From the NCBI GenBank assembly GCA_016871535.1, contig VHCZ01000008.1, forward strand, positions 1 through 59,272: a stretch of DNA of 59,272 nucleotides. Reading direction: 5' to 3'. Position numbers and translations under genes: made by a program. Under the pieces are notes generated by a model. It had not been told where the DNA came from and made no database searches. It saw only the letters and a program-made list of their open reading frames with translations. Origin of the DNA: Verrucomicrobiota bacterium. GTDB taxonomy: Bacteria; Verrucomicrobiota; Verrucomicrobiia; Limisphaerales; SIBE01. Positions 2,886-57,376 of the stretch are shown piece by piece; position 1 is the first letter of the stretch, and every line of letters begins with the position of its first letter.

Positions 2886-3038
2886 TGGGGAGCGCACGCG
2901 CCCTCGCGTGCTGTGGTCGGCGCCCTCGCCGACCACAATGGTGCCATCGAGCAAGTCACCATCGAAGGGACCATCTGACGCGGTCCTTCCGACTGGCGAG
3001 GCGCCAGTCGGAACACGCGAGGGCGCGTGCGCTCCCCA
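2886..3038. repeat. palindromic element, family B copy 1 (153 bp, four hairpins)
   Basis: The outer arms are 25-bp perfect inverted repeats (TGGGGAGCGCACGCGCCCTC...). Inside are further hairpins: GTGGTCGGCG-CCCT-CGCCGACCAC and CGACTGGCG-AG-GCGCCAGTCG. Other copies are at 6108-6259 and 8090-8239. Similarity of the flanks extends the element about 25 bp further out on either side. Confidence 0.9.
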
Positions 3039-4335: not shown

Positions 4336-4479
4336 AAGACGGTTGTTGGATCGCTCGTTGAGACCGAGTAACTACACGGTGCAGTGTCCAGCTCTTACTG
4401 TAAGGCTGTCCGGTGCCGGCACGAAACTCTTTCTCCGTTCCCTCCGTTGTCTCCTGTTATTTAACTCGAACCGCCGTTC

Positions 4480-5214
4480 TCAATGCGGCACGCCGTGGGC
4501 GTGTTGCCAGGCGTGAAGGACGTGGCCAACGATCTCGTCCAGTCCCACACCGTGCTTCACTTGCGCGAACACGAATGGCCCGCTGCCGCGCATCTTTTTG
4601 GAATCGCGTTCCATCACGCCCAGGTCTGCGCCCACGGCGCTGGCCAGATCCGTCTTGTTGATGACGAGAAGGTCGGACTGCGTGATGCCCGGCCCCCCTT
4701 TGCGCGGAATCTTGTCCCCGCCCGCCACGTCGATCACGTAGATGGTGTAATCGGCGAGTTCGCGGCTGAAGCACGCCGCCAGGTTATCGCCGCCGGATTC
4801 GAGCAGGAGGACGTCCGGACGGAACTTCTGATGCAGTTCCTCCAAGGCCAGCAAGTTGGCCGAGATGTCCTCGCGAATGGCCGTGTGCGGACAACCGCCG
4901 GTTTCAACGGCGCGAATTCGCTGGGCGTCCAGGGCTTGATGCCGAATCAGGAATTCGCCGTCCTCCTTGGTGAAGATGTCGTTGGTCACAGCGGCGATGT
5001 TCAAGCGGTCGCGCAGCTTGAGGCAGAGTTGGAGCATGAGCGCGGTTTTTCCGCTTCCGACCGGGCCGCCGACGCCAACGGTGAACGCCCTCCGATGAAA
5101 ATCGCGGTCCAGCGGCAGGTCCCGCTCATGAAAATGGCCGGGATGATCCGGGTGTTCGGGAGGATGGCCCTTGCCATGGTGGTCTCCGAAATGAAGCAGT
5201 AGAGTGGATTTCAT
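4480..5214 (-). CDS. ureG: urease accessory GTPase UreG
   Basis: A 244-residue SIMIBI GTPase that delivers nickel to apo-urease with UreF and UreD. The P-loop is GPVGSGKT (50-57), the conserved nickel-binding C-P-H is at 108-110 (TGGCPHTA), and the guanine-specificity motif NKTD is at 186-189. The first ~40 residues are a histidine-rich extension ([20 protein letters not shown]) that may store or bind nickel. This could matter because no ureE is found in the locus (inference). It is the last gene of the urea operon, 24 bp after ureF. Confidence 0.96.
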
Positions 5215-5238
5215 TTTAGTCCTGTGACACGGAATTAG

Positions 5239-6075
5239 TCAGCTTTGAAAGAGTCGCGAATAAAGTCGATCCTGCGTTCCTTGCCAAAGATCGAGCAGTG
5301 GTGAAGTCTGGGCAATATCATCGAGCGCAAGCCGCTCGCATTGCGTGCGGATGGCTTCGGCGTGGGACGAAAGCTGAAGCTGGATCGCCTGTGCGTCCAT
5401 GGGGCCGACGACGTTCAGCCGCACGGCTGCGGCGAGCAATGAGCGCAGGTGGCTGAAGAAGAAAAGCCGCGTGGCGAGTTCGCGGTTGAGGCCAAGCCGG
5501 TTTGTCACGGCGCCAAATACAGGGGCGTAGTGGAAGTAACGTAGGGCAGGCTTCCAGCCTGCCCAATTGAGCGAAGGGTCGTTGGAAGTCGTTTGAGACT
5601 GCAGGGCAGACATCCTCGAAACCGGCTGAGTGGGCATCTTTGTTCCGTCGTTCTGGCGGCAAGATGCCGCCAGAACCGGCAGGCTGGAAGCCTGCCCTAC
5701 GTTCACGATCCGCTCGACCGCAGTGAAGAAGGCTTTGCCCTGCAGACGGCTTGCGCGGTTGGCGACGTGATTCGTCGTGAACGCGTCGCACAGTTCATCA
5801 AATTCCTCCAGCCGCTCCGGCTCGGCGTGCGCCGTGGCGACGAAAGGCAGGGAACTGTGGCCGAGCTGGCGCAAACTGGCTTCGAGAAAAGAGACAAGCT
5901 CCACACGGTTCCGCACTTCGCCATGCTGCCAGGCCGCTTCCAGTCCCGCGGAATGCGCAAACGAGCCGGTCGGAAAGGCCGAATCCGCCAGTTGCCACAC
6001 GAGCCAGTCATTCCGTCCCGATGCGGACGTGAGAAAGCGTTGATCGATCGCGGATTGTTGAGTCAATGCCTCCAT
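5239..6075 (-). CDS. ureF: urease accessory protein UreF with an in-frame repeat insertion
   Basis: UreF is a GTPase-regulating chaperone in the UreD-UreF-UreG complex. The N-terminal WLVWQLADSAFPTGSFAHS (about residues 24-42) and the later YAPVFGAVTNRLGL are diagnostic. Between AFFTAVERIV and RYFHYAPVFG the protein carries about 54 extra residues (beginning GQASSLPVLAAS, ending NWAGWKPAL). These correspond exactly to a palindromic element with 26-bp perfect inverted ends (5538-5703). Removing it restores a normal-length UreF of about 224 residues, and the frame is preserved across it. Whether the extra segment is tolerated as a surface loop is unknown. The rest of the gene looks intact. Confidence 0.92.
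   Translation of the reverse strand: MEALTQQSAIDQRFLTSASGRNDWLVWQLADSAFPTGSFAHSAGLEAAWQHGEVRNRVELVSFLEASLRQLGHSSLPFVATAHAEPERLEEFDELCDAFTTNHVANRASRLQGKAFFTAVERIVNVGQASSLPVLAASCRQNDGTKMPTQPVSRMSALQSQTTSNDPSLNWAGWKPALRYFHYAPVFGAVTNRLGLNRELATRLFFFSHLRSLLAAAVRLNVVGPMDAQAIQLQLSSHAEAIRTQCERLALDDIAQTSPLLDLWQGTQDRLYSRLFQS
5538..5703. repeat. palindromic element, family E copy inside ureF
   Basis: The arms AACGTAGGGCAGGCTTCCAG... are perfect inverted repeats of 26 bp. The core runs from GTAG to CTAC (5541-5700, 160 bp). Each end is a REP-like unit: GTAG foot, stem GGCAGGC / GCCTGCC, loop TTCCA. An inner hairpin TTCTGGCGGCA / TGCCGCCAGAA lies at about 5650-5674. The element is in-frame within ureF and stop-free in that frame. 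Confidence 0.93.
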
Positions 6076-6107
6076 ACTTCGCTGCTACACCAAAACGATT
6101 CAATCGA

Positions 6108-6259
6108 TGGGGAGCGCACGCGCCCTCGCGTGCCGAGGTCGGCGCCCTCGCCGACCTCGGGCTTCCGTCCGAAACCGCCATTGCAGGACCTAACCGTTCC
6201 AACGACGTATCGACCGGCGAGGCGCCGGTCGATACACGCGAGGGCGCGTGTGCTCCCCA
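6108..6259. repeat. palindromic element, family B copy 2 (ureC-ureF gap)
   Basis: Same 25-bp arms as at 2886. The inner stems differ by paired changes: CGAGGTCGGCG / CGCCGACCTCG, where copy 1 has GTGGTCGGCG / CGCCGACCAC, and ATCGACCGGCG / CGCCGGTCGAT. It fills most of the 210-bp gap between ureC and ureF. Confidence 0.9.
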
Positions 6260-6285
6260 ATTTCGATTGCACAGACACGGCTAAG

Positions 6286-8001
6286 TCAGAAGAGGAAATA
6301 CCTCTGCGCGAGCGCTAACACGTTGGCCGGTTCGCACGCGAGCAGCTCGCCGTCCGCGCGGACTTCGTAGGTTTCCGGATCCACGGCGATTTCCGGCGTG
6401 GCGTTGTTCCATTTCAGATCTTTCTTGCCGATCTTGCGGCAGCCTTTGACGGCTTCGATGCGCTTCGTCAGGCCATAGCTTCGGGCGGTTCCTTTGCTCA
6501 GGCAAGACTGGCTGACGAAAGCGATGGAACACGGCCCCGAGGCTCGGCCGAAGCTCCCGAACATCGGGCGCATGAAAACAGGCTGCGGCGTCGGAATCGA
6601 CGCATTGGGATCGCCCATTTGCGACCAGGCAATGACGCCGCCCTTGATGACCATCTCCGGTTTGGCCCCGAAGAACGCGGGCTTCCACAACACCAGATCA
6701 GCCAACTTACCCACTTCGATTGAGCCGATGAGGTGGCTCATGCCGTGGGCGATGGCCGGATTGATGGTGTATTTCGAGAGATACCGTTTGACCCGGAGAT
6801 TGTCGTTTTCGCCTCGTTCGCCGGGCAAGCGTCCGCGCTGACGCTTCATCTTGTCCGCCGTCTGCCAGGTGCGAGTAATCACCTCGCCGATTCGGCCCAT
6901 GGCCTGGCTGTCGCTGCTCATCATGCTGATCGCGCCCAGGTCGTGCAGGATGTCCTCGGCAGCGATGGTTTCGCCGCGGATGCGGCTCTCGGCGAACGCG
7001 ACGTCTTCGGGCAAGTTCGGATCGAGGTGATGACAGACCATCAGCATGTCGAGATGTTCGTCGATAGTGTTCACCGTGTACGGGCGCGTCGGGTTGGTGG
7101 AGCTGGGCAGCACGTTCGGTTCGCCGCAGATGCGGATGATGTCCGGCGCGTGCCCGCCGCCTGCGCCCTCCGAATGATACGTATGGATGGTGCGCCCCTT
7201 GAAGGCGGCAATCGTGCCTTCGACAAATGTGGATTCGTTCAAGGTGTCCGTGTGGATGGTCACCTGGACGTCGTGTTCGTCCGCGACGCCCAGGCAACAA
7301 TCGATTGCCGCCGGCGTCGTGCCCCAATCTTCGTGCAACTTCAGACCGATGGCGCCGGCTTCGATTTGTTCGGGGAGACCGGCGGGCAAGGCGGTGTTGC
7401 CTTTGCCGGTGAACCCGAAATTGAGCGGCAAATCGTCCACGGCTTGCAGCATCATCCGGAGATTGAACGAACCGGGCGTACACGTCGTCGCGCACGTGCC
7501 GACGGCTGGCCCGGTCCCGCCGCCGACCATTGTGGTCAGTCCGGCTGCGATGGCTTCATGCGCTTGCTGCGGGCAGATGAAGTGAATGTGTGCATCCAGG
7601 CCTCCGGCGGTGAGGATCAACCCTTCGCCGGCGATGACTTCAGTAGTGACGCCGACGATCATTCCAGGGGTGACGCCTGACATGACATCCGGGTTGCCGG
7701 CTTTGCCGATGCCGCTAATCAAGCCGTTCTTGATGCCGATGTCGGCCTTGTAGATGGCGGTGTGGTCCACGACGAGCGCGTTGGTGATGACGCAATCCAG
7801 CGCGTCCTGGTCACCCACGCCGGCGGCCTGGCCCATGCCTTCCCGAATGACTTTGCCGCCTCCGAATTTGCATTCGTCGCCATAAGTGGTGTGGTCCTTT
7901 TCAATTTCCAAAACCAGGGAAGTGTCGCCCAACCGGACTTTGTCGCCCGTGGTCGGGCCGAACATTTCGGCGTAATGCCGCCGTTTCATTTTGTGAGGCA
8001 T
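6286..8001 (-). CDS. ureC: urease alpha (catalytic) subunit
   Basis: A 571-residue catalytic subunit that hydrolyses urea to ammonia and carbamate at a dinuclear nickel site. Visible are the N-terminal [18 protein letters not shown], metal ligands H138 and H140 (GLDAHIHF), the carbamylated lysine K221 ([11 protein letters not shown]), H250 and H276 ([22 protein letters not shown]), the mobile-flap C323-H324 ([20 protein letters not shown]) and D364 ([11 protein letters not shown]). All active-site residues are present and the length is normal. Start ATG 8001. It is separated from ureAB by about 270 bp occupied by a simple-word array and element B, and from ureF by another B element. Confidence 0.98.
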
Positions 8002-8006
8002 GGGAC

Positions 8007-8042
8007 GTTAAATGGGTTAAAAAAGGTTAAATCGTTAAATCG
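8007..8042. repeat. simple-word array, family K (GTTAAAT words)
   Basis: GTTAAATGGGTTAAAAAAGG followed by TTAAATCGTTAAATCGG: tandem imperfect 7-9-mers directly upstream of ureC. A related array brackets the ureAB-ureD gap at 9147-9276. Confidence 0.7.
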
Positions 8043-8089
8043 GTGAGATCTGATCGAGCGCACTTAAGCCGGAACGATTCTGTTGGAAC

Positions 8090-8239
8090 TGGAGAGCACA
8101 CGCGCCCTCGCGTGTGGCGACTGGCGCCTCGCCAGTCGGATCGTCGTTGAAACCATTGCACTGAATGGGATGGTTCAGTTCGATGGAATAGAGTCGGCGA
8201 GGGCGCCGACTCCAGCACGCGCGGCGCGTGCGCTCCCCA
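8090..8239. repeat. palindromic element, family B copy 3 (ureAB-ureC gap)
   Basis: Arms TGGAGAGCACACGCGCCCTC and its near complement ending GCGCGTGCGCTCCCCA. The inner hairpins are CGACTGGCG-CCT-CGCCAGTCG and GAGTCGGCG-AGGG-CGCCGACTC. The hairpin order is reversed relative to copies 1 and 2. The left flank GCCGGAACGATTC.GTTGGAACT matches the complement of the right flank of copy 1. Confidence 0.88.
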
Positions 8240-8269
8240 TCTGATCTGAATCTCCGACGGTGGACAATT

Positions 8270-9142
8270 TCATGATTTCGTCGTGGCGAATCCCTTCTGT
8301 TTTGCCCGTGCCAATGCGGCCTTTCGACCTGCCTCTGAGATCTGGCCACTGGCAAGATTGTTTCCGCCGCGGATGATTTTTTCGCCGGCGATGTCCACGA
8401 GCTTCACCGTTTTGGTTTCGCCGGGCTCGAATCGGACGGCCGTGCCGGCAGGGATATCGAGGCGTTTGCCGTAGGCTTTGGCGCGATCGAACTCCAGAAA
8501 GGCGTTCGTCTCAATGAAATGGTAATGGCTGCCGACCTGAATGGGACGATCGCCAAGATTTGTCACGGGCAACTCGACCGTCGCGCGGCCGGCGTTGAGT
8601 TCGATTTCCCCTTCGAGTGGAGCGCAAGCGCCGGGGACGGCGAATACTTCCTCCCTACGAACCCACCCACTCCCAGCCCCTCCCAGGAGGGGAGCCACGA
8701 TTGTCGCGCCTGCTTCAGCTTCCCCTCCTGGGAGGGGTGACGGGGTGGGTTCGTTAAGCGGAAGTTCGTCCTTGAATCTGGACATATCCGGCACAGGCAG
8801 AAAACTGCCGTGCAGGGCCAGCGCTAGATTGCCATGTTCGCTTGCGATGGGGTGATGCACGGTGACGAGTTTGGTGCCGTCCGGGAACGTGCCTTCCACC
8901 TGCACCTCGTGAATCATTTCCGGCACACCGGACATAACCTGGTTGCGGCCAAGCAACTGCCGGCCCAGGTTCATGAGTTCGGCGACGCGTTTGCCTTCGC
9001 GGATGAATTCGAGCAAGACGGCGGCGATCAGCGCAACGGCTTCCGGATGGTTCAGGCGCAGACCGCGGGCGAGGCGTTTCTGTGCGAGAAAACCGGCGTT
9101 GTGCAACATCAACTTTTCGATTTCGCGGGGGGATAAGTGCAT
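8270..9142 (-). CDS. ureAB: urease gamma-beta fusion subunit (UreA-UreB)
   Basis: A 290-residue fusion. Residues 1-~100 are the gamma subunit ([31 protein letters not shown]). The rest is the beta subunit ([37 protein letters not shown], and [20 protein letters not shown]). Gamma-beta fusions are known in several bacteria. Unusual is the linker: after KDELPLN comes a proline/glycine-rich stretch of about 33 residues ([16 protein letters not shown]... to GSGWVRR), which is the translation of palindromic element F (8658-8753). The frame is maintained through it. The subunit would assemble with UreC into the (alpha, beta-gamma) trimer. Confidence 0.95.
8658..8753. repeat. palindromic element, family F copy inside ureAB
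   Basis: CGAACCCACCCACTCCCAGC ... GACGGGGTGGGTTCG, with internal hairpins CCCCTCC-CAG-GAGGGG and CCCCTCC-TGG-GAGGGG. It lies exactly in the gamma-beta linker and is read in-frame. Other copies: 15273-15362 and 59108-59197, the latter also in-frame inside a gene. Confidence 0.9.
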
Positions 9143-9146
9143 TTTG

Positions 9147-9276
9147 TAATGGGTTGAATCGTTAAATGGGTCAAGTGGTTAAATGAGTGGAAGAGATTGA
9201 ACGGTTTGCGCCAGCCAAATGCACGGCGGCCTTTTGCCCAATTTAGCTTATTTAACTCTCATACCCATTTAACCTT
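9147..9276. repeat. simple-word arrays with inverted arms, family K (ureAB-ureD gap)
   Basis: The left arm has AATGGGTTGAATCGTTAAAT and GTGGTTAAATGAG. The right arm (9239-9276) is the complement type (TTTAGCTTATTTAACTC, CCCATTTAACC). Together they form an imperfect palindrome that fills the gap between ureD and ureAB. Confidence 0.6.
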
Positions 9277-9287
9277 CTCGCGCTTTG

Positions 9288-10334
9288 TCACCACTTTCTG
9301 GCGAAGGGATCATCGCCGAGGAGTTCAGCGACGGGAAGGAGGTGGCGATGAAGTTCGCGTGCGACTTCTTCGACTCGATTTCCAGCGACCCGGAAGACGC
9401 CGCCGTCCTGCGCGGGACTGGCGCTGAAAACCACCGTTCCACCGCGAGGGACGGGTTGCCCGGAAACGCTCTCCAGTATTTGGGCCGCGATGCGACGAAC
9501 GGGCGCGCCGAGAACCAGCAACAGCGCGAAGCAGTTGAAACGGCCCGTGCGATGCCGGCTCTCGAGAGAGCCCTCGGCGGAGTCGAGCAGCAATGAGTCC
9601 AGGAAGAGGGGTCTTCCGCGTCGGATGGTTTGTGCGGCGCGCTTCTCAATTCTCTGAACGGCATCGAAATCGGTTGCTTCTCCCTCACCCGAACCCTCTC
9701 CCGCTGGGAGAGGGGCAATGGGCGCTGTTTCTGCGAGCGCAGAGGACACGATTTCCTCCCTCAGCGGGGGAGGATCAAGGTGAGGGACAAGCTCTGGCAC
9801 TCCCCGAGAGGTTCGTTTTTGAATGCTCCAGACTTCATTTCGGCTTTGAAAGCGCTGGAACGCCCAGCGCTCGCCGCGCGCGACGCGGCCAGAACAAAAC
9901 CAGTCCACAAGCACAAGACCCGCGTCAGGACCAAGGTGAAACTCCTGGCGCTGGCTGTAAGTGGAATGAGCGAACGGCTGCGCCGGGTCGGGCGCAAACA
10001 CCAAAAACGATCCGGCTTCCAACGTAGCCTGGGTTACGTGACCGCAGGGGCGGCAGCTCGGATTGCGGTAGATTTTTGTCGAGGCTTGCGTGCCGACAAA
10101 GCATCGGGCGCTCGCTCCAAGTCGCAGGTCAAGGCGCGTCTGGTCGCCAGCAACCAGGCCGCCGCCGAAACTGCTTGCGAAGGCCCAGACGCTTCGGCCC
10201 CGCGTCCGAGGCGTCAAGAGTTTGAGTGGACTCGTGGCGAAGGCGGAAGTGACGGCGCTTTCTCCGGCGACCTGCGTGACTTCGAGCACGGCGTGCCCGG
10301 CCGTGCCTCGGTAGATGTCGGTCGGCGCGATCAT
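9288..10334 (-). CDS. ureD: urease accessory protein UreD with an in-frame repeat insertion
   Basis: A 348-residue UreD, the scaffold that binds apo-urease and channels nickel. Family features are VTSAFATSPLKLLTPRTRG (residues ~30-48), ASSFGGGLVAGDQTRLDLRL, TQASTKIYR and PDPAQPFAHSTYSQ. Between about residues 185 and 216 the sequence becomes low-complexity (PHLDPPPLREEIVSSALAET, then PIAPLPAGEGSGEGE). This is the translation of element G at 9681-9787; typical UreD is about 30-60 residues shorter. The downstream frame is intact to a normal C-terminus. It is the first urease gene after urtE in the operon. Confidence 0.93.
   Translation of the reverse strand: MIAPTDIYRGTAGHAVLEVTQVAGESAVTSAFATSPLKLLTPRTRGRSVWAFASSFGGGLVAGDQTRLDLRLGASARCFVGTQASTKIYRNPSCRPCGHVTQATLEAGSFLVFAPDPAQPFAHSTYSQRQEFHLGPDAGLVLVDWFCSGRVARGERWAFQRFQSRNEVWSIQKRTSRGVPELVPHLDPPPLREEIVSSALAETAPIAPLPAGEGSGEGEATDFDAVQRIEKRAAQTIRRGRPLFLDSLLLDSAEGSLESRHRTGRFNCFALLLVLGAPVRRIAAQILESVSGQPVPRGGTVVFSASPAQDGGVFRVAGNRVEEVARELHRHLLPVAELLGDDPFARKW
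9681..9787. repeat. palindromic element, family G copy inside ureD
   Basis: TCCCTCACCCGAACCCTCTC ... AGGATCAAGGTGAGGGA. Inverted ends TCCCTCACC / GGTGAGGGA, with a hairpin CCCTCTCCC-GCT-GGGAGAGGG at the left end. In-frame in ureD. Relatives are at 27423-27454 (partial), 54332-54377 (partial) and 58254-58371. Confidence 0.85.
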
Positions 10335-10394
10335 GGCTCACGGTCGTAAGGATCTCCATGGTTTCGAAAACGACTGCTCACACCGCGTGAAAAA

Positions 10395-10478
10395 GGTAGG
10401 GCGAGTCCGTCTCGGCGAGCCGCTCCGCGCGCTTGAAATACGTTCAGACCGGCTCGCTGAGGACAGGCTCGCCCTACC
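10395..10478. repeat. palindromic element, family A copy (84 bp, ureD-urtE gap)
   Basis: GGTAGGGCGAGTCCGTCTCG ... GACAGGCTCGCCCTACC. The ends GGTAGGGCGAG / CTCGCCCTACC are perfectly inverted. One of nine copies in the window; eight of them are exactly 84 bp. Confidence 0.93.
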
Positions 10479-10534
10479 TGGTTCGCGGGAAAGTGCCCGG
10501 GCGCCGGGCACAGCGAAAAGCGCTAACCCATCCC

Positions 10535-15362: not shown

Positions 15363-15413
15363 GTGGGCCGCAAGCAGGTCCGATAGTCACTCAGAGCTTC
15401 CTTTGAACCAGAC

Positions 15414-15497
15414 GGTAGGGCGAGCCTGTCCCCAGCGAGCCGAGTCGGACGTGTTCCATGCACGTCGAGCGGCTCGCCGGGACGGATTCGCCCTACC
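15414..15497. repeat. palindromic element, family A copy (urtA-urtB gap)
   Basis: 84 bp from GGTAGGGCGAGCC to GGATTCGCCCTACC. The flanks TTTGAACCAGAC and GGGTTCATGAG are the same inverted GAACC/GGTTC extension seen around other A copies. Confidence 0.93.
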
Positions 15498-15932
15498 GGG
15501 TTCATGAGCCGAGCGCATGGTTCTGAAACCAAGGGAACTTCGCATGAATCACGGTTCGTCCTCGAGGTTTTGGATTCCACCAGTCGCCTCTGCTCCTCGC
15601 AACCCTGGGCTTTGGGGCAGAATCCCGTTGGGATTCCAGATGGGATAATTGCGTGCAAGGAGCAGGGTCCTCCCACTTTTGCGAGGCGCCAAAACGCCGC
15701 TTCGACGCGGCGGCGCCGGGCGTTTGGCGGGAGGAATTCAAAAGCGGCAGAGGACTGAGGCAGTCCAAGACCCTGTCGCGCGGAGGAGTGTCCCCTCTGG
15801 TTCATGGTCCAATTCGCGGTTGTTGTCGTCCGACAAAACAAGGGGTGGGCCGCCTCCGGCCCACCCCTCTCACCAGCACCCATACAGGACCTCGTGGAGC
15901 AAGCACAGGATCCATGCACAGAAAAGGGCGCG
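15498..15932. other. urtA-urtB intergenic region with palindromes, no gene
   Basis: About 435 bp without a credible gene. It includes the palindrome AATCCCGTTGGGATTC near 15622-15637, a low-similarity block at about 15700-15745 rich in GGCGCC, and the long perfect hairpin at 15841-15868. It is probably a stack of decayed repeats of families not otherwise represented in this window. Confidence 0.5.
15841..15868. terminator. strong hairpin downstream of urtA (possible terminator/attenuator or repeat)
   Basis: AGGGGTGGGCC-GCCTCC-GGCCCACCCCT: an 11-bp perfect stem with a 6-base loop, 65 bp after the urtA stop on the minus strand. There is no T-run after it in the urtA direction, so factor-independent termination is doubtful. 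It may act as an attenuator reducing urtB-ureG expression relative to urtA, or be another palindromic repeat. Confidence 0.45.
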
Positions 15933-35473: not shown

Positions 35474-36727
35474 ATGAAATTCGTGAAAGGCCTTCTCGTT
35501 CCGGTTTGCCTGATCGGCCTCAGCCTCTTCTTGAGTTGCCAGACTGCGCCGCGCACGGAAGGAACCAGATCGCCGAGCAAGCAGACTTCCCAGGAACCTG
35601 ACGGTAGGGCGAGCCTGTCCCCAGCGAGCCGGTCCGGACGTGTTCCACGCACGGGCAGCGGCTCGCCGGGACGGACTCGCCCTACCCTGGACCGCGTCGC
35701 CGTTGCGCCGGATGCGCGGGGTTTCATGCTCGCAAAGTCACGCCGAGCCTTTCATCCCTGGGGCATGAACTACGGCAACGCGGGCCGTTTGATGGAAGAT
35801 TTCTGGGATCGCGACTGGGACACGCTGGCTGGAGATTTCCGCGAGCTGAAGGCGCTCGGCGCAAATGTCGTGCGCGTCCACCTTCAGTTCGGAAAGTTCA
35901 TGAAGGCAGCGGACCGTCCAGATGTCCATGCCTTGACGCAATTCCGCCGGCTGCTGCGGCTCGCGGAAAGCACGGGAATTTATCTCGATGTTACCGGGTT
36001 GGCGTGTTACCGGCCGAGCGATGTGCCGGCGTGGTTCGACGCGCTCGAAGAGACGGCGCGTTGGGCGGCGCAGGCGAAATTCTGGGAGGCGGCCGCCGAG
36101 ATTGGGGCGTCGAGCCCGGCGGTGTTTTGCTACGATTTGATCAACGAACCGATTTCACCCGGCCAACGCCGCGAGCCGGGAAAATGGCGATCGGGCAGCT
36201 TGTTCGGCGGTTACGACTTCCTGCAATACATCGCGCTGGATCCCGGCGGCCGCACGCGTGAACACATCGCGAGTCAATGGATCGAACGCATGACCGCGGC
36301 GATTCGCAAACACGACCGGCAGGCCTTGATCACGGTCGGACTTCTCCCGTGGTCGCGGCAGTGGAAGCATCTGTCCGGTTTCGTGCCTGAAAGAACCGCT
36401 TCGCAACTGGATTTCATCAGCGTGCACATTTATCCGAACCGCGACCTTCCGGACGAGGCGATGGAATCGCTCCGCATCTGCAGCGCGGGCAAACCGGTCG
36501 TGATCGAGGAAACCTTCCCGCTTCAGTGCGACGTGGACCAACTGGAGAAATTCCTGCGCGCGTCCCGCGAGATCGCTTGCGGGTGGATCGGCCATTATGA
36601 CGGCGACACCCCGGAGCAATTGGATGGATTGGAACGCGCGGGGAAGCTCGGCATTTCGCAAAGCATCTACCGCTCATGGATGAGAATGTTCGTTCGCCTC
36701 AAACCCGAGTTCGCCCCCGATCCATAA
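35474..36727 (+). CDS. GH5-like glycoside hydrolase lipoprotein with an in-frame A element
   Basis: 417 residues. Lipoprotein signal LVPVCLIGLSLFLSCQTA (lipobox cysteine ~22), then about 28 residues encoded by repeat A (GRASLSPASRSGRVPR...), then a (beta/alpha)8 cellulase-superfamily domain: FHPWGMNYG (~95), GANVVRVHLQFGKFM, the acid/base candidate E225 in FCYDLINEPI and the nucleophile candidate E345 or E346 in KPVVIEETFPLQ. The spacing fits clan GH-A (GH5-like); the substrate is unknown. The element lies between the lipobox and the catalytic domain, where a flexible linker is normally tolerated, so the protein is probably functional. It converges with and slightly overlaps the ankyrin remnant. 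Confidence 0.78.
   Translation: MKFVKGLLVPVCLIGLSLFLSCQTAPRTEGTRSPSKQTSQEPDGRASLSPASRSGRVPRTGSGSPGRTRPTLDRVAVAPDARGFMLAKSRRAFHPWGMNYGNAGRLMEDFWDRDWDTLAGDFRELKALGANVVRVHLQFGKFMKAADRPDVHALTQFRRLLRLAESTGIYLDVTGLACYRPSDVPAWFDALEETARWAAQAKFWEAAAEIGASSPAVFCYDLINEPISPGQRREPGKWRSGSLFGGYDFLQYIALDPGGRTREHIASQWIERMTAAIRKHDRQALITVGLLPWSRQWKHLSGFVPERTASQLDFISVHIYPNRDLPDEAMESLRICSAGKPVVIEETFPLQCDVDQLEKFLRASREIACGWIGHYDGDTPEQLDGLERAGKLGISQSIYRSWMRMFVRLKPEFAPDP
35603..35686. repeat. palindromic element, family A copy inside the GH5-like gene
   Basis: 84 bp, GGTAGGGCGAGCCTGTCCCC ... GGACTCGCCCTACC, read in frame 1 (GRASLSPASR...). It forms a linker directly after the lipoprotein signal. Confidence 0.93.
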
Positions 36728-39380: not shown

Positions 39381-39488
39381 CCCATGAACCGGACGGTAGG
39401 GCGAGCCTGTCCCCAGCGAGCCGAGTCAGACGTGTTCCAGTCACGTCGAGCGGCTCGCCGGGACGGACTCGCCCTACCCGGTTCATGG
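39381..39488. repeat. palindromic element, family A copy with full flanks
   Basis: The 84-bp core is 39395-39478. The flanks CCCATGAACCGGAC and CCGGTTCATGGG are also inverted, giving the longest version of the element in the window. Confidence 0.92.
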
Positions 39489-42726: not shown

Positions 42727-42911
42727 GCAAGTTGTCCCGTCGTTGCCGGAGTGCCTCCGCCCCGCCTGTCGGGAAAGAACAAGTCGTCGTCTGCGATATC
42801 TGGAATGTGCCGAACAACGATCGCCGCAACGCCATTCGTTGTTTGCATACGGAAGATGTTTGCGCTGCCAGCCAGCGTTGTGAAGCTGGTTAGTTGAGCA
42901 AGCGATACCAA
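42723..42911 (-). CDS. small hypothetical ORF linking mqnC and the oxidoreductase gene (62 aa)
   Basis: The frame begins inside the end of mqnC (22-bp overlap) and stops at a TGA overlapping the oxidoreductase ATG. It reads MVSLAQLTSFTTLAGSANIF, then a hydrophobic VAAIVVRHIPDIADDDLFF and a Gly/Pro tail. No family is recognisable. The double overlap suggests translational coupling but may be chance; a shorter start at MQTTNGVA (42851) is possible. Confidence 0.3.
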   Translation of the reverse strand: MVSLAQLTSFTTLAGSANIFRMQTTNGVAAIVVRHIPDIADDDLFFPDRRGGGTPATTGQLA

Positions 42912-44083
42912 TTGTCGCGCTGGCGTGGTTCGTAGCCCAAATCCCGGATGAGCCGCTGCATGTCCTGCACGGTCATCCGGAACGTCGTGCCGGCTTGCGA
43001 AACCACGTTCTCCTCAATCATGATGCTGCCAAGATCATTTGCGCCGTGCTTCAACGCGATCTGTCCGATCGACAACCCCTGAGTGACCCACGAACTCTGA
43101 ATGTTCGGGACGTTATCCAGATAGATTCGACTCAGCGCTTGGGTTCGCAAGTAATCATGAGCGCCCACGGTTGGCGCCCGCAGCTTTGTATTCTCAGCCT
43201 GGAAGGTCCAACCGATGAACGCGGTGAAGCCCGCCGGATGTAGGGCAGGCATCTTGCCTTCCACCGCGCCAGTGTTCGCGTTGGCATGGGCATTTTCGCC
43301 CGGTCTCTCGGTCTGGGCAGGCTGGAAGCCGGGCCTACTCTTATCCTGTTGCGCGCGCACGCGCTCGAGATGCTCGATCCGGTCTTCCGGCGTCTCAACG
43401 TGGCCGAACATCATTGTCGCCGTAGAGTTCAGTCCAAGCTTATGAGCCACATCCATGACGCCGAGCCAATCATCGCTCATCGCCTTGAGCGGTGAAATAC
43501 GCTTGCGGACGCGATCGACGAGGATTTCGCCGCCGCCCCCCGGAATCGAGCCCAAACCCGCTTTCATGAATTGAGAAATGATGTCTTCAAGCGGCAACTG
43601 AAAAACCTCGCGAAAGTGGATGAACTCGCTCGGACTGAATCCATGAATGTTGACCTGGGGAAACTTGCCTTTGATGTGCGCCAGCAGATCGAGATACCAT
43701 TGCATCGTGAGTTTCGGGTGATGCCCGCCCTGCATCAAGACCTGCGTTCCGCCCAGCGCAATGGTTTCTTCGATCTTCTTGTCGAGATCCTCGAGAGTGA
43801 GGACGTAGGCGTCGGCGTCCTTTTCGGTGCGGTAAAAGGCGCAGAACTTGCAATAGACGTTGCAGACGTTCGTGTAGTTGATATTGCGGTCGATGATGTA
43901 AGTGACGATTTGGTTGCCGCGGCCTTCGTAAGCGCTGGCCTTGGCCAGTTGCCGGCGGCGATCCGCCAACGCGCCGAGTTCCTCCAGGGGCAGATGGTAA
44001 AGCCGGAGCGCCTCAGAGGGGTTGATTCGCCCGCCGTCCCAGACCTTCTGCAACACATCATCAATCGTCGTGTCGTAAATCAT
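42890..44083 (-). CDS. mqnC: cyclic dehypoxanthinyl futalosine synthase MqnC with an in-frame repeat insertion
   Basis: 397 residues. A radical-SAM enzyme of the futalosine menaquinone pathway that cyclises dehypoxanthine futalosine. The 4Fe-4S cysteines are C74, C78 and C81 (TNVCNVYCKFCAFYR). QVLMQGGHHPKLTMQWYLDL, VNIHGFSPSEFIHF, SIPGGGGEILVDRVRK and FTAFIGWTFQAENTKLR are MqnC-typical. Between RVRAQQDK and GFTAFIGWTF the family normally has no gap; here about 33 residues (RPGFQPAQTERPGEN to GKMPALHP) are inserted, matching the 99-bp element 43240-43338. The insertion is just before a core strand, so activity may depend on it forming a surface loop. Start ATG 44083 (MIYDTTIDDV). It implies that this organism makes menaquinone by the futalosine route. 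Confidence 0.93.
   Translation of the reverse strand: MIYDTTIDDVLQKVWDGGRINPSEALRLYHLPLEELGALADRRRQLAKASAYEGRGNQIVTYIIDRNINYTNVCNVYCKFCAFYRTEKDADAYVLTLEDLDKKIEETIALGGTQVLMQGGHHPKLTMQWYLDLLAHIKGKFPQVNIHGFSPSEFIHFREVFQLPLEDIISQFMKAGLGSIPGGGGEILVDRVRKRISPLKAMSDDWLGVMDVAHKLGLNSTATMMFGHVETPEDRIEHLERVRAQQDKSRPGFQPAQTERPGENAHANANTGAVEGKMPALHPAGFTAFIGWTFQAENTKLRAPTVGAHDYLRTQALSRIYLDNVPNIQSSWVTQGLSIGQIALKHGANDLGSIMIEENVVSQAGTTFRMTVQDMQRLIRDLGYEPRQRDNWYRLLN
43240..43338. repeat. palindromic element, family E relative inside mqnC (99 bp)
   Basis: GTAGGGCAGGCATCTTGCCT ... GTCTGGGCAGGCTGGAAGCCGGGCCTAC. GTAG feet at both ends. 99 bp is 33 codons, and the frame through the element is open. Confidence 0.87.
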
Positions 44084-44100
44084 GGGCAAATCACGGCGGG

Positions 44101-44997
44101 TCAAGGATCCAACCGATTCGCCTCTGTCTGGTTGACCGACCACGATCCCGCCAGTGAATTATCGTTGTTCCACCGGCGGTGCCAGGCGTCATTCTTGGGA
44201 TTGATAACGTCGTTGCGGAGCGCGCTCTCGGCGTGGCCGTCGCAGAACATGAGGACCGTGCGGCGATTATGGCGGTTGGAGGGCCATTCGGTGGAAGTCG
44301 TTGGATCGATGTTCGCGTCGTACTGCCCCCGGGTAGGCTTGGCGCTGCTGCCGTCACCGGGCTTGCTGTCGCCCAGCATGATCATGTCGGATGGCACTCG
44401 GACGGCTGCTTCTTTGACCTCGTAAGTCAGTGTGTCCACGTCCCCTCCCAGGCCTTTGTCCGAGAAGGCGGGAAACGCTCCCCAATCGTTGTAACCAACC
44501 GAGAAAAGTGCGGTCTCGCTAATTCCCCAGGGATCTCGGCCGCCGCCGTAGAGGTTAAGCGCTCCAAGGGTTTTGTTGAGATTCGTGCTCCATCGGCTAT
44601 CGGCCCGCGCCGCAGGACACGCAAAGATCTCCCGGTTGGTTCCGATCTGGGTGAAAAGCCGCGCGGGCCAGACATAACGGACGCCTCCCTGAGCGAACAG
44701 AGTGCCGGGATACTTGCCGTTGTCCTGCACGTACATGACGGTCGCGAGGCCCAACTGGCGCATGTTGTTGAGGCAGGAAGTTTGTTTGGCCTTGGACTTC
44801 GCCCGCGCCAGCGCCGGCAGCAACATGGCGGCGAGGATCGCGATGATGGCGATGACAACGAGTAGTTCAATGAGTGTGAAAGCGGCGAACCGGCTTCGAG
44901 GGCACAGCGATGTGAGCGTTGCTGCCCCAGGCAGGCCGACGGCTTTCTGGAAGGAATTAGGCGCTTTGGAAATCGATTCGGCAGTTATCATGGTCAA
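44101..44997 (-). CDS. prepilin-type protein with C-terminal H-X9-DG motif
   Basis: 298 residues. A basic leader ends at SRFAA before [20 protein letters not shown] (~40-60), the class III prepilin cleavage/methylation site and helix. The body includes [20 protein letters not shown] (common in the planctomycete/verrucomicrobial pseudopilins) and ends with [16 protein letters not shown], the H-X9-DG type signature. These pseudopilins are processed by a prepilin peptidase and probably belong to a type II secretion-like machine. It is transcribed divergently from the exopolysaccharide export genes and sits just behind mqnC. Confidence 0.9.
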
Positions 44998-55270: not shown

Positions 55271-55866
55271 ACCCGTTGAACTTTCCCGCTCCAGAGCTTC
55301 CCATGAACCGGACGGTAGGGCGAGCCTGTCCCCAGCGAGCCGGTCCAGACGTATTCCAAGCACGTGGAGCGGCTCGCCGGGACGGACTCGCCCTACCATC
55401 GACGCGTTCGTGGGCCGTAGGCACGGCTCGCAGGCCGTGGAAGCTCCCCATCAACCGTCTCTTCGGACCGTGGCCTTTGAGCCGCTGCATCCGCGAACTC
55501 CGGAGCGGGGCCGGAAGCAGCCTCAAGGCTGCGGTCCGCACGGTCTTCAGTTCATGGCCCGTGAACAACAGGAGACTCCCCATGAACCACTGGGTAGGGC
55601 GAGCCTGTCCCCAGCGAGCCGGTCCAGACGTATTCCAAGCACGTGGAGCGGCTCGCCGGGACGGACTCGCCCTACCATCGACGCGTTCATGGGCCGTAGG
55701 CACGGCTCGCAGGCCGTGGAAGCTTCTCCTGAACTCGGTAGGGACGGATTCCACTCCGTCCCTGACTCTACTCTGCATTCGAAAGTGCAGCTTGAGGGAC
55801 GCGGCGGAACGCGTCCTTACCAGTTCCTGCACCGTGTGCGCAGTTCGGAAGCCGTGCGAGCTCGGG
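55271..55866. repeat. repeat island between apbE and the FMN-binding gene
   Basis: Six palindromic units in 600 bp: A (55314-55397), L (55408-55450), H (55464-55538, 75 bp), A again (55593-55676), L (55687-55728) and C (55737-55821). The two A-L pairs are nearly identical over more than 100 bp, so part of the island is a tandem duplication with H in between. The frame starting at the ATGA of apbE remains open through the whole island into the FMN-binding gene. Confidence 0.92.
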
Positions 55867-57237: not shown

Positions 57238-57255
57238 AACGTTTCGGAGAACCCC

Positions 57256-57339
57256 GGTAGGGCGAGTCCGTCCCGGCGAGCCGCTCGACGTGCGTGGAAC
57301 ACGTCCGACTCGGCTCGCTGGGGACAGGCTCGCCCTACC
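57256..57339. repeat. palindromic element, family A copy
   Basis: 84 bp, opposite orientation to the copies at 55 kb. Fills the 140-bp gap before the polyferredoxin gene. Confidence 0.93.
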
Positions 57340-57376
57340 GTCTGGTTCATGGGAAGTTGAATAACGTGAGAGCGCT

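Follow-up and report, generated by a model that had tools for sequence, protein, structure and literature searches.

GTAG-tagged REPs are known to form dimers, some of them intragenic, and the largest count of intragenic GTAG repeats was reported for Opitutus terrae, a member of the Verrucomicrobia (Di Nocera et al. 2013; PMC3733652). In the same work, GTAG repeats are associated with a transposase gene and CGTC repeats are not (PMC3733652). A related arrangement, the REPIN, was described in extragenic space (Bertels and Rainey 2011; PMC3116915), and it is a published hypothesis that REPs are moved by RAYTs, the REP-associated tyrosine transposases (PMC3116915; PMC3733652). Intragenic GTAG REP dimers are therefore already known, and the insert in the urease accessory gene ureF considered here adds another case.

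The window (the whole 59,272-nucleotide stretch of DNA that was analyzed, from a Verrucomicrobiota genome referred to here as G000) includes ureF and the genes of its urease operon (Table 1). Within ureF, two inverted arms of 26 nt each (5538-5563 and 5678-5703) are 100% complementary with 114 nt between them, as the preliminary description had it, and the chance expectation of such perfect pairs no more than 250 nt apart in the window is about 9e-9. The insert is 166 bp long, starts at codon 125, reaches one base into codon 180, and adds ~55 residues to a frame that stays open over its full length, in agreement with the roughly 54 residues estimated earlier. RNA of the ureF strand folds at -93.1 kcal/mol (z = -9.7 vs. 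200 shuffles), the two inverted REPs pairing as one long hairpin through the 26-bp outer pairing. The arms are not the simple terminal repeats for which they were taken: each is a hairpin of its own, a GTAG-tagged REP (GTAG-GGCAGGC-TTCCA-GCCTGCC) that when folded comprises the tag, an 8-bp stem, and a 3-nt loop, and further hairpins lie between them. These dimensions are those of GTAG REPs, in which a terminal GTAG lies beside a short stem-loop that is G+C-rich and has a stem of 5-13 bp and a loop of 2-20 nt. The insert is a composite. On the right, in forward-strand coordinates, lies a worn 100-bp element (5601-5700), and to the left of it come a 37-bp spacer and then a separate REP (5541-5563), so that each of the two perfect arms is part of a different unit. 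A peptide segment of the insert region, in predicted translation, is VGQASSLPVLAASCR.

Table 1. Coordinates of the urease genes, the parts of the ureF insert, and other repeat-bearing features of the window
Feature	Coordinates	Strand	Remarks
ureG	4480-5214	-	Pfam cobW/HypB/UreG; 89% identical in G001
ureF	5239-6075	-	278 codons, intact, with in-frame insert; Pfam UreF, E 1e-27
Composite REP-doublet insert	5538-5703		Perfect 26-bp inverted ends; loop with pLDDT 41-46
GTAG REP type A	5541-5563	+	0 mismatches to consensus
37-bp spacer	5564-5600		REP-adjacent part similar to the spacer in the ureF doublet of G001
Worn 100-bp four-hairpin REP element	5601-5700		17/100 sites differ from consensus
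Degraded left REP of the 100-bp element	5601-5623	+	Second stem arm destroyed
Internal hairpin GTTCTGGCGGC-AAGAT-GCCGCCAGAAC	5650-5676		11-bp perfect stem; sequence and fold
GTAG REP type A	5678-5700	-	0 mismatches; inverted relative to the REP at 5541-5563, with the GTAG tags on the outside (head-to-head doublet)
ureC	6286-8001	-	Pfam; 95% identical in G001
ureAB fusion	8270-9142	-	Another repeat family in linker
ureD	9288-10334	-	Another repeat family, in frame
GTAG-like doublets of the GGTAGGGCGAGCCTGTCCC family	15413-15498, 35603-35686, 39395-39478, 55311-55400, 55593-55679, 57255-57340		Inverted arms
mqnC/cofH-like radical SAM gene	42893-44158	-	Contains the doublet at 43240-43338
Second in-frame doublet of the ureF REP family	43240-43338		Inside the mqnC/cofH-like gene

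At the protein level, the Pfam UreF match runs across the insert (residues 54-235). In an AlphaFold model the UreF core is mostly confident (pLDDT up to 96), with a TM-score of about 0.78 (by target length) to Helicobacter pylori UreF (4hi0, 3sf5, and 3cxn). The insert is modeled as a predicted disordered loop between helices 103-130 and 183-193, which is the kind of position that a proposed structural check was meant to reveal and which supports the earlier suggestion that UreF tolerates the added residues. Between G000 and its congener G001, the dN/dS values are 0.076 (ureF core), 0.046 (ureC), 0.065 (ureG), and 0.078 (ureAB), and these G001 genes have no stops. From these comparisons, the UreF core is intact and, at a dN/dS of about 0.08, evidently under purifying selection, and the insert looks non-damaging. 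The genes ureG, ureC, and ureD are intact as originally described, and so is ureAB. The in-frame repeats in the ureAB linker and in ureD are unrelated to the ureF REP and are different again in G001. An Rfam match to 5_ureB_sRNA (RF02514; 104.5 bits) lies antisense to ureC at 7555-7847 on the forward strand, and may merely mirror coding conservation.

The REP of the ureF insert has many dispersed copies. The G000 genome contains 182 at no more than three mismatches (vs. 73 and 214 in two congeners and 0 for a reversed-pattern control), and among 56 genomes of the order, 18 have any such REP at no more than two mismatches, the distribution being patchy. MAG contigs were used throughout. About 100 of the 182 places in G000 were sampled, by region, and the 80 sampled stretches together with the window hold 53 head-to-head doublets and 51 single units, so that both the copy number and the mostly head-to-head pairing are those of GTAG REPs. 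The 100-bp four-hairpin element recurs as well, with 12 copies of exactly this length in the sampled stretches besides the one in ureF. Coding context was called by Pfam matches, because a codon-usage score meant to call it on both sides was noisy. A length-modulo-3 bias toward in-frame doublets was looked for and none was seen. In coding frames, VGQASSLP is the usual reading of the 5' REP, with 16 cases against 3 of RAGFQPA when a loose coding cut-off is applied to stretches L103-L182 and L205-L264 of G000-G002; both frames are open. Other repeat families occur in the window. One is palindromic (TGGGGAGCGCACGCG...), is found at 2886-3038 and 6108-6259, and has a translation resembling the peptides that flank the first RAYT of alaS (see below) as well as a part of the UreF loop of G001; another, GGTAGGGCGAGCCTGTCCC, forms GTAG-like doublets with arms 46 nt apart.

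Residence in conserved genes is frequent for this repeat family in the group. Among the Pfam-confirmed proteins of G000 that carry ureF-family REPs in frame are GcvP, UvrD, MutS (in its domain III), a class III aminotransferase, the mqnC/cofH-like protein of the window, and DnaX and LigD, the last two with the REP in a linker. A number of in-frame sites are common to more than one species: uvrD and mqnC (three species each, the mqnC REPs being worn in two), gcvP, and genes for a kinase, a PSD1 protein, and a WD40 protein. It should be noted that the uvrD, kinase, PSD1, and WD40 cases over-represent intact REPs, because those stretches were fetched for holding REPs. The notion that REPs at shared sites never decay was dropped, as protein-led searches, which do not select for intact REPs, gave worn REPs in mqnC and gcvP. 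At the mqnC site, G001 and G002 have worn doublets and G003-G006 (sister genera of the family) have a clean empty site. In mutS (stretches L157 and L263), the insert of G002 at the place of the G000 REP element is a different one and, at roughly 190 residues, much longer. Three REP doublets of 77 bp each lie in frame within a 2468-residue TPR/glycosyltransferase frame (L103:2596-9999), at intervals of about 240-250 residues. Shared in-frame REPs of this kind provide paired sites at which the entry of REPs into genes, their rate of decay, and their use by proteins can be studied.

A candidate mobilizer is present. In G000, 13 matches to the Y1 transposase family were found, and one of them, a Y1_Tnp domain on contig 42 (stretches L067 and L111), lies between two doublets of the ureF REP family, which is the kind of RAYT association recorded for GTAG REPs. 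It is the only RAYT found with ureF-family doublets on its flanks, and it is lodged inside a DinG-like helicase gene (L111:3176-6295), which holds the whole RAYT and both doublets in frame. At the corresponding place, the congener G002 has one REP doublet, and G003, G004, G005, and G009 have an ordinary linker. From this association we infer that the contig 42 RAYT moved the ureF insert.

Whole RAYTs also reside in other host genes. The alaS of G000 (contig 141, L309:1809-6002, forward strand), the only AlaRS gene found, is one 1398-codon frame with two RAYT domains, both with the MPDHVH motif and in frame, at two sites. Both are present in G002 and one in G009, which belongs to another family; RAYT motifs also fall within the AlaS frames of five further genomes of the order (G012, G017, G029, G033, and G035), and AlaS is ordinary in other genera of the same family. 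For the first alaS RAYT, dN/dS is about 0.12-0.19, with dS near-saturated. In-frame RAYTs were also found in HsdR-like proteins of G002 and G006, in a second type I restriction R protein of G006, and in a DnaE-like protein of G009, so named from HHH_6 and OB-fold matches and reading of the sequence (the stretches that carry these RAYTs are L311, L314, L313, and L302). In a limited search of the open-licence literature, we found no description of RAYTs in frame within host proteins and nothing relevant on RAYTs and alanyl-tRNA synthetase. It is conceivable, and we put it forward tentatively, that the REP/RAYT systems of this order are adapted to life in coding sequences, with doublets that have usable open frames and with whole, stop-free RAYTs in frame within host proteins that are essential or conserved (AlaS, with two, and the DinG-like helicase, HsdR, and DnaE). 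If so, the host gene would shelter the RAYT from deletion and also provide for its expression, and the alaS transposase domains may be long-term residents. Through the alaS RAYTs, one can test whether a transposon is able to persist as a component of an essential enzyme.

Returning to ureF, the reading that we consider highly probable is that a RAYT-type REP doublet lies in a variable loop of UreF, that it likely entered before the split from G001, that the 100-bp unit came later, and that the whole is tolerated. The insert is a GTAG-tagged REP doublet (REPIN/BIME), a non-autonomous type of element that a RAYT would move in trans, and it most likely entered a naturally variable surface loop before that split; later, in the lineage of G000, an element of this family, 100 bp long and with four hairpins, would have been added or exchanged at the 5' REP. 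Its retention would be explained by the open reading frame, the frame-preserving length, and the disordered loop, with which UreF is proposed to keep working. We infer both the order of the insertion events and the functional neutrality of the loop. The insert is absent from ~20 relatives in the order, most relatives having UreF loops of about 8-25 residues, which bears out the original view of a mobile palindromic element between conserved blocks of UreF; relatives with the same residues and without palindromic ends were not found. Because no empty ureF site at the DNA level was found in a close relative, the exact insertion event is not reconstructable. In G001 (67% complete; JACPRI010000073.1), a REP doublet occupies the same position of ureF, with one mismatch per REP and adjoining part of a second palindromic family. 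That doublet, present despite only 48% identity at fourfold sites of ureF (the UreF proteins are 70% identical), and the 17 of 100 differences in the 100-bp element speak against the claim that the insertion is recent. Perfect arms are here weak evidence of recency, since homogenization or re-insertion could keep them alike.

The main competitor is that the loop is a permissive hot spot at which G000 and G001 each gained a REP doublet of their own. The 5' REP of G000 is part of a 100-bp element that G001 lacks, G001 has a second repeat family beside its doublet, and the REPs are nearly perfect in both species (arms 44/46 identical) in spite of the low identity at fourfold sites. Hot-spot behavior also has parallels in the differing inserts of mutS and in the long unrelated loops of G004 and G006 at the same position of UreF. 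Against this, the spacer next to the 3' REP matches that of the G001 doublet at 14 of 24 positions, ranking first of the 242 spacers compared; the AAC flank and the insert boundaries agree between the two genomes; and the mqnC and gcvP REPs wear down from what appears to be a single insertion, with a shared derived base in mqnC. We thus favor a single ancestral insertion in ureF that would later have been remodeled, the modest spacer match being part of its support, and regard independent insertions as rather unlikely. Selective retention, with the translated REP or an RNA or DNA hairpin co-opted in UreF or in expression of the operon, could account for the similarity of the arms and for the 20 matched insert codons of G000 and G001, which differ by six synonymous and zero amino-acid changes. 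This zero hints at constraint on the peptide, in segments that were picked for matching; gene conversion or re-insertion would equally keep REPs alike, the remainder of the loop is not conserved, REPs decay at mqnC and gcvP, and the same peptide occurs in many unrelated proteins, so that co-option appears quite improbable. Even less probable is the proposal that a recent insertion has set the operon on its way to inactivation: the perfect arms and the very stable mRNA hairpin would fit it, but the doublet of G001 lies at the same place, the inner REP is worn, and every urease gene is open and under purifying selection. Removal of the insert after transcription or translation, as with an intron or intein, is scarcely credible; it has only size and strong folding in its favor, and the frame is open throughout and the loop varies between species in length and content. 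An intron was rejected, as Rfam gave no intron-family match over 4400-10500 (the sole match was the ureB antisense RNA model). The ureF case indicates that the palindromic insert of this accessory gene is tolerated and does not amount to a lesion.

Given that intragenic GTAG REPs have been described in Opitutus terrae (PMC3733652), the ureF insert belongs with a known kind. It shares with those repeats the GTAG tag, a short stem-loop, and high copy number, as well as head-to-head dimers with GTAG outside, RAYT association, and in-frame residence in conserved genes; the published GTAG REPs comprise 24 families, and the likeness is at the level of the class. What differs here is the recurrent 100-bp four-hairpin unit and the many intragenic sites common to species. 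With REPINs (PMC3116915) it shares an inverted REP doublet that forms a hairpin and a cognate RAYT in the genome, but REPINs are extragenic and this insert lies inside ureF, in frame and (as predicted) translated. Because it is intragenic, and because intragenic units are counted as REP class (PMC3733652), we file it as a GTAG REP doublet and not strictly as a REPIN. Rickettsia palindromic elements similarly are palindromic repeats tolerated in frame in unrelated proteins, but they are of the CGTC class, and the tag of the ureF insert is GTAG.
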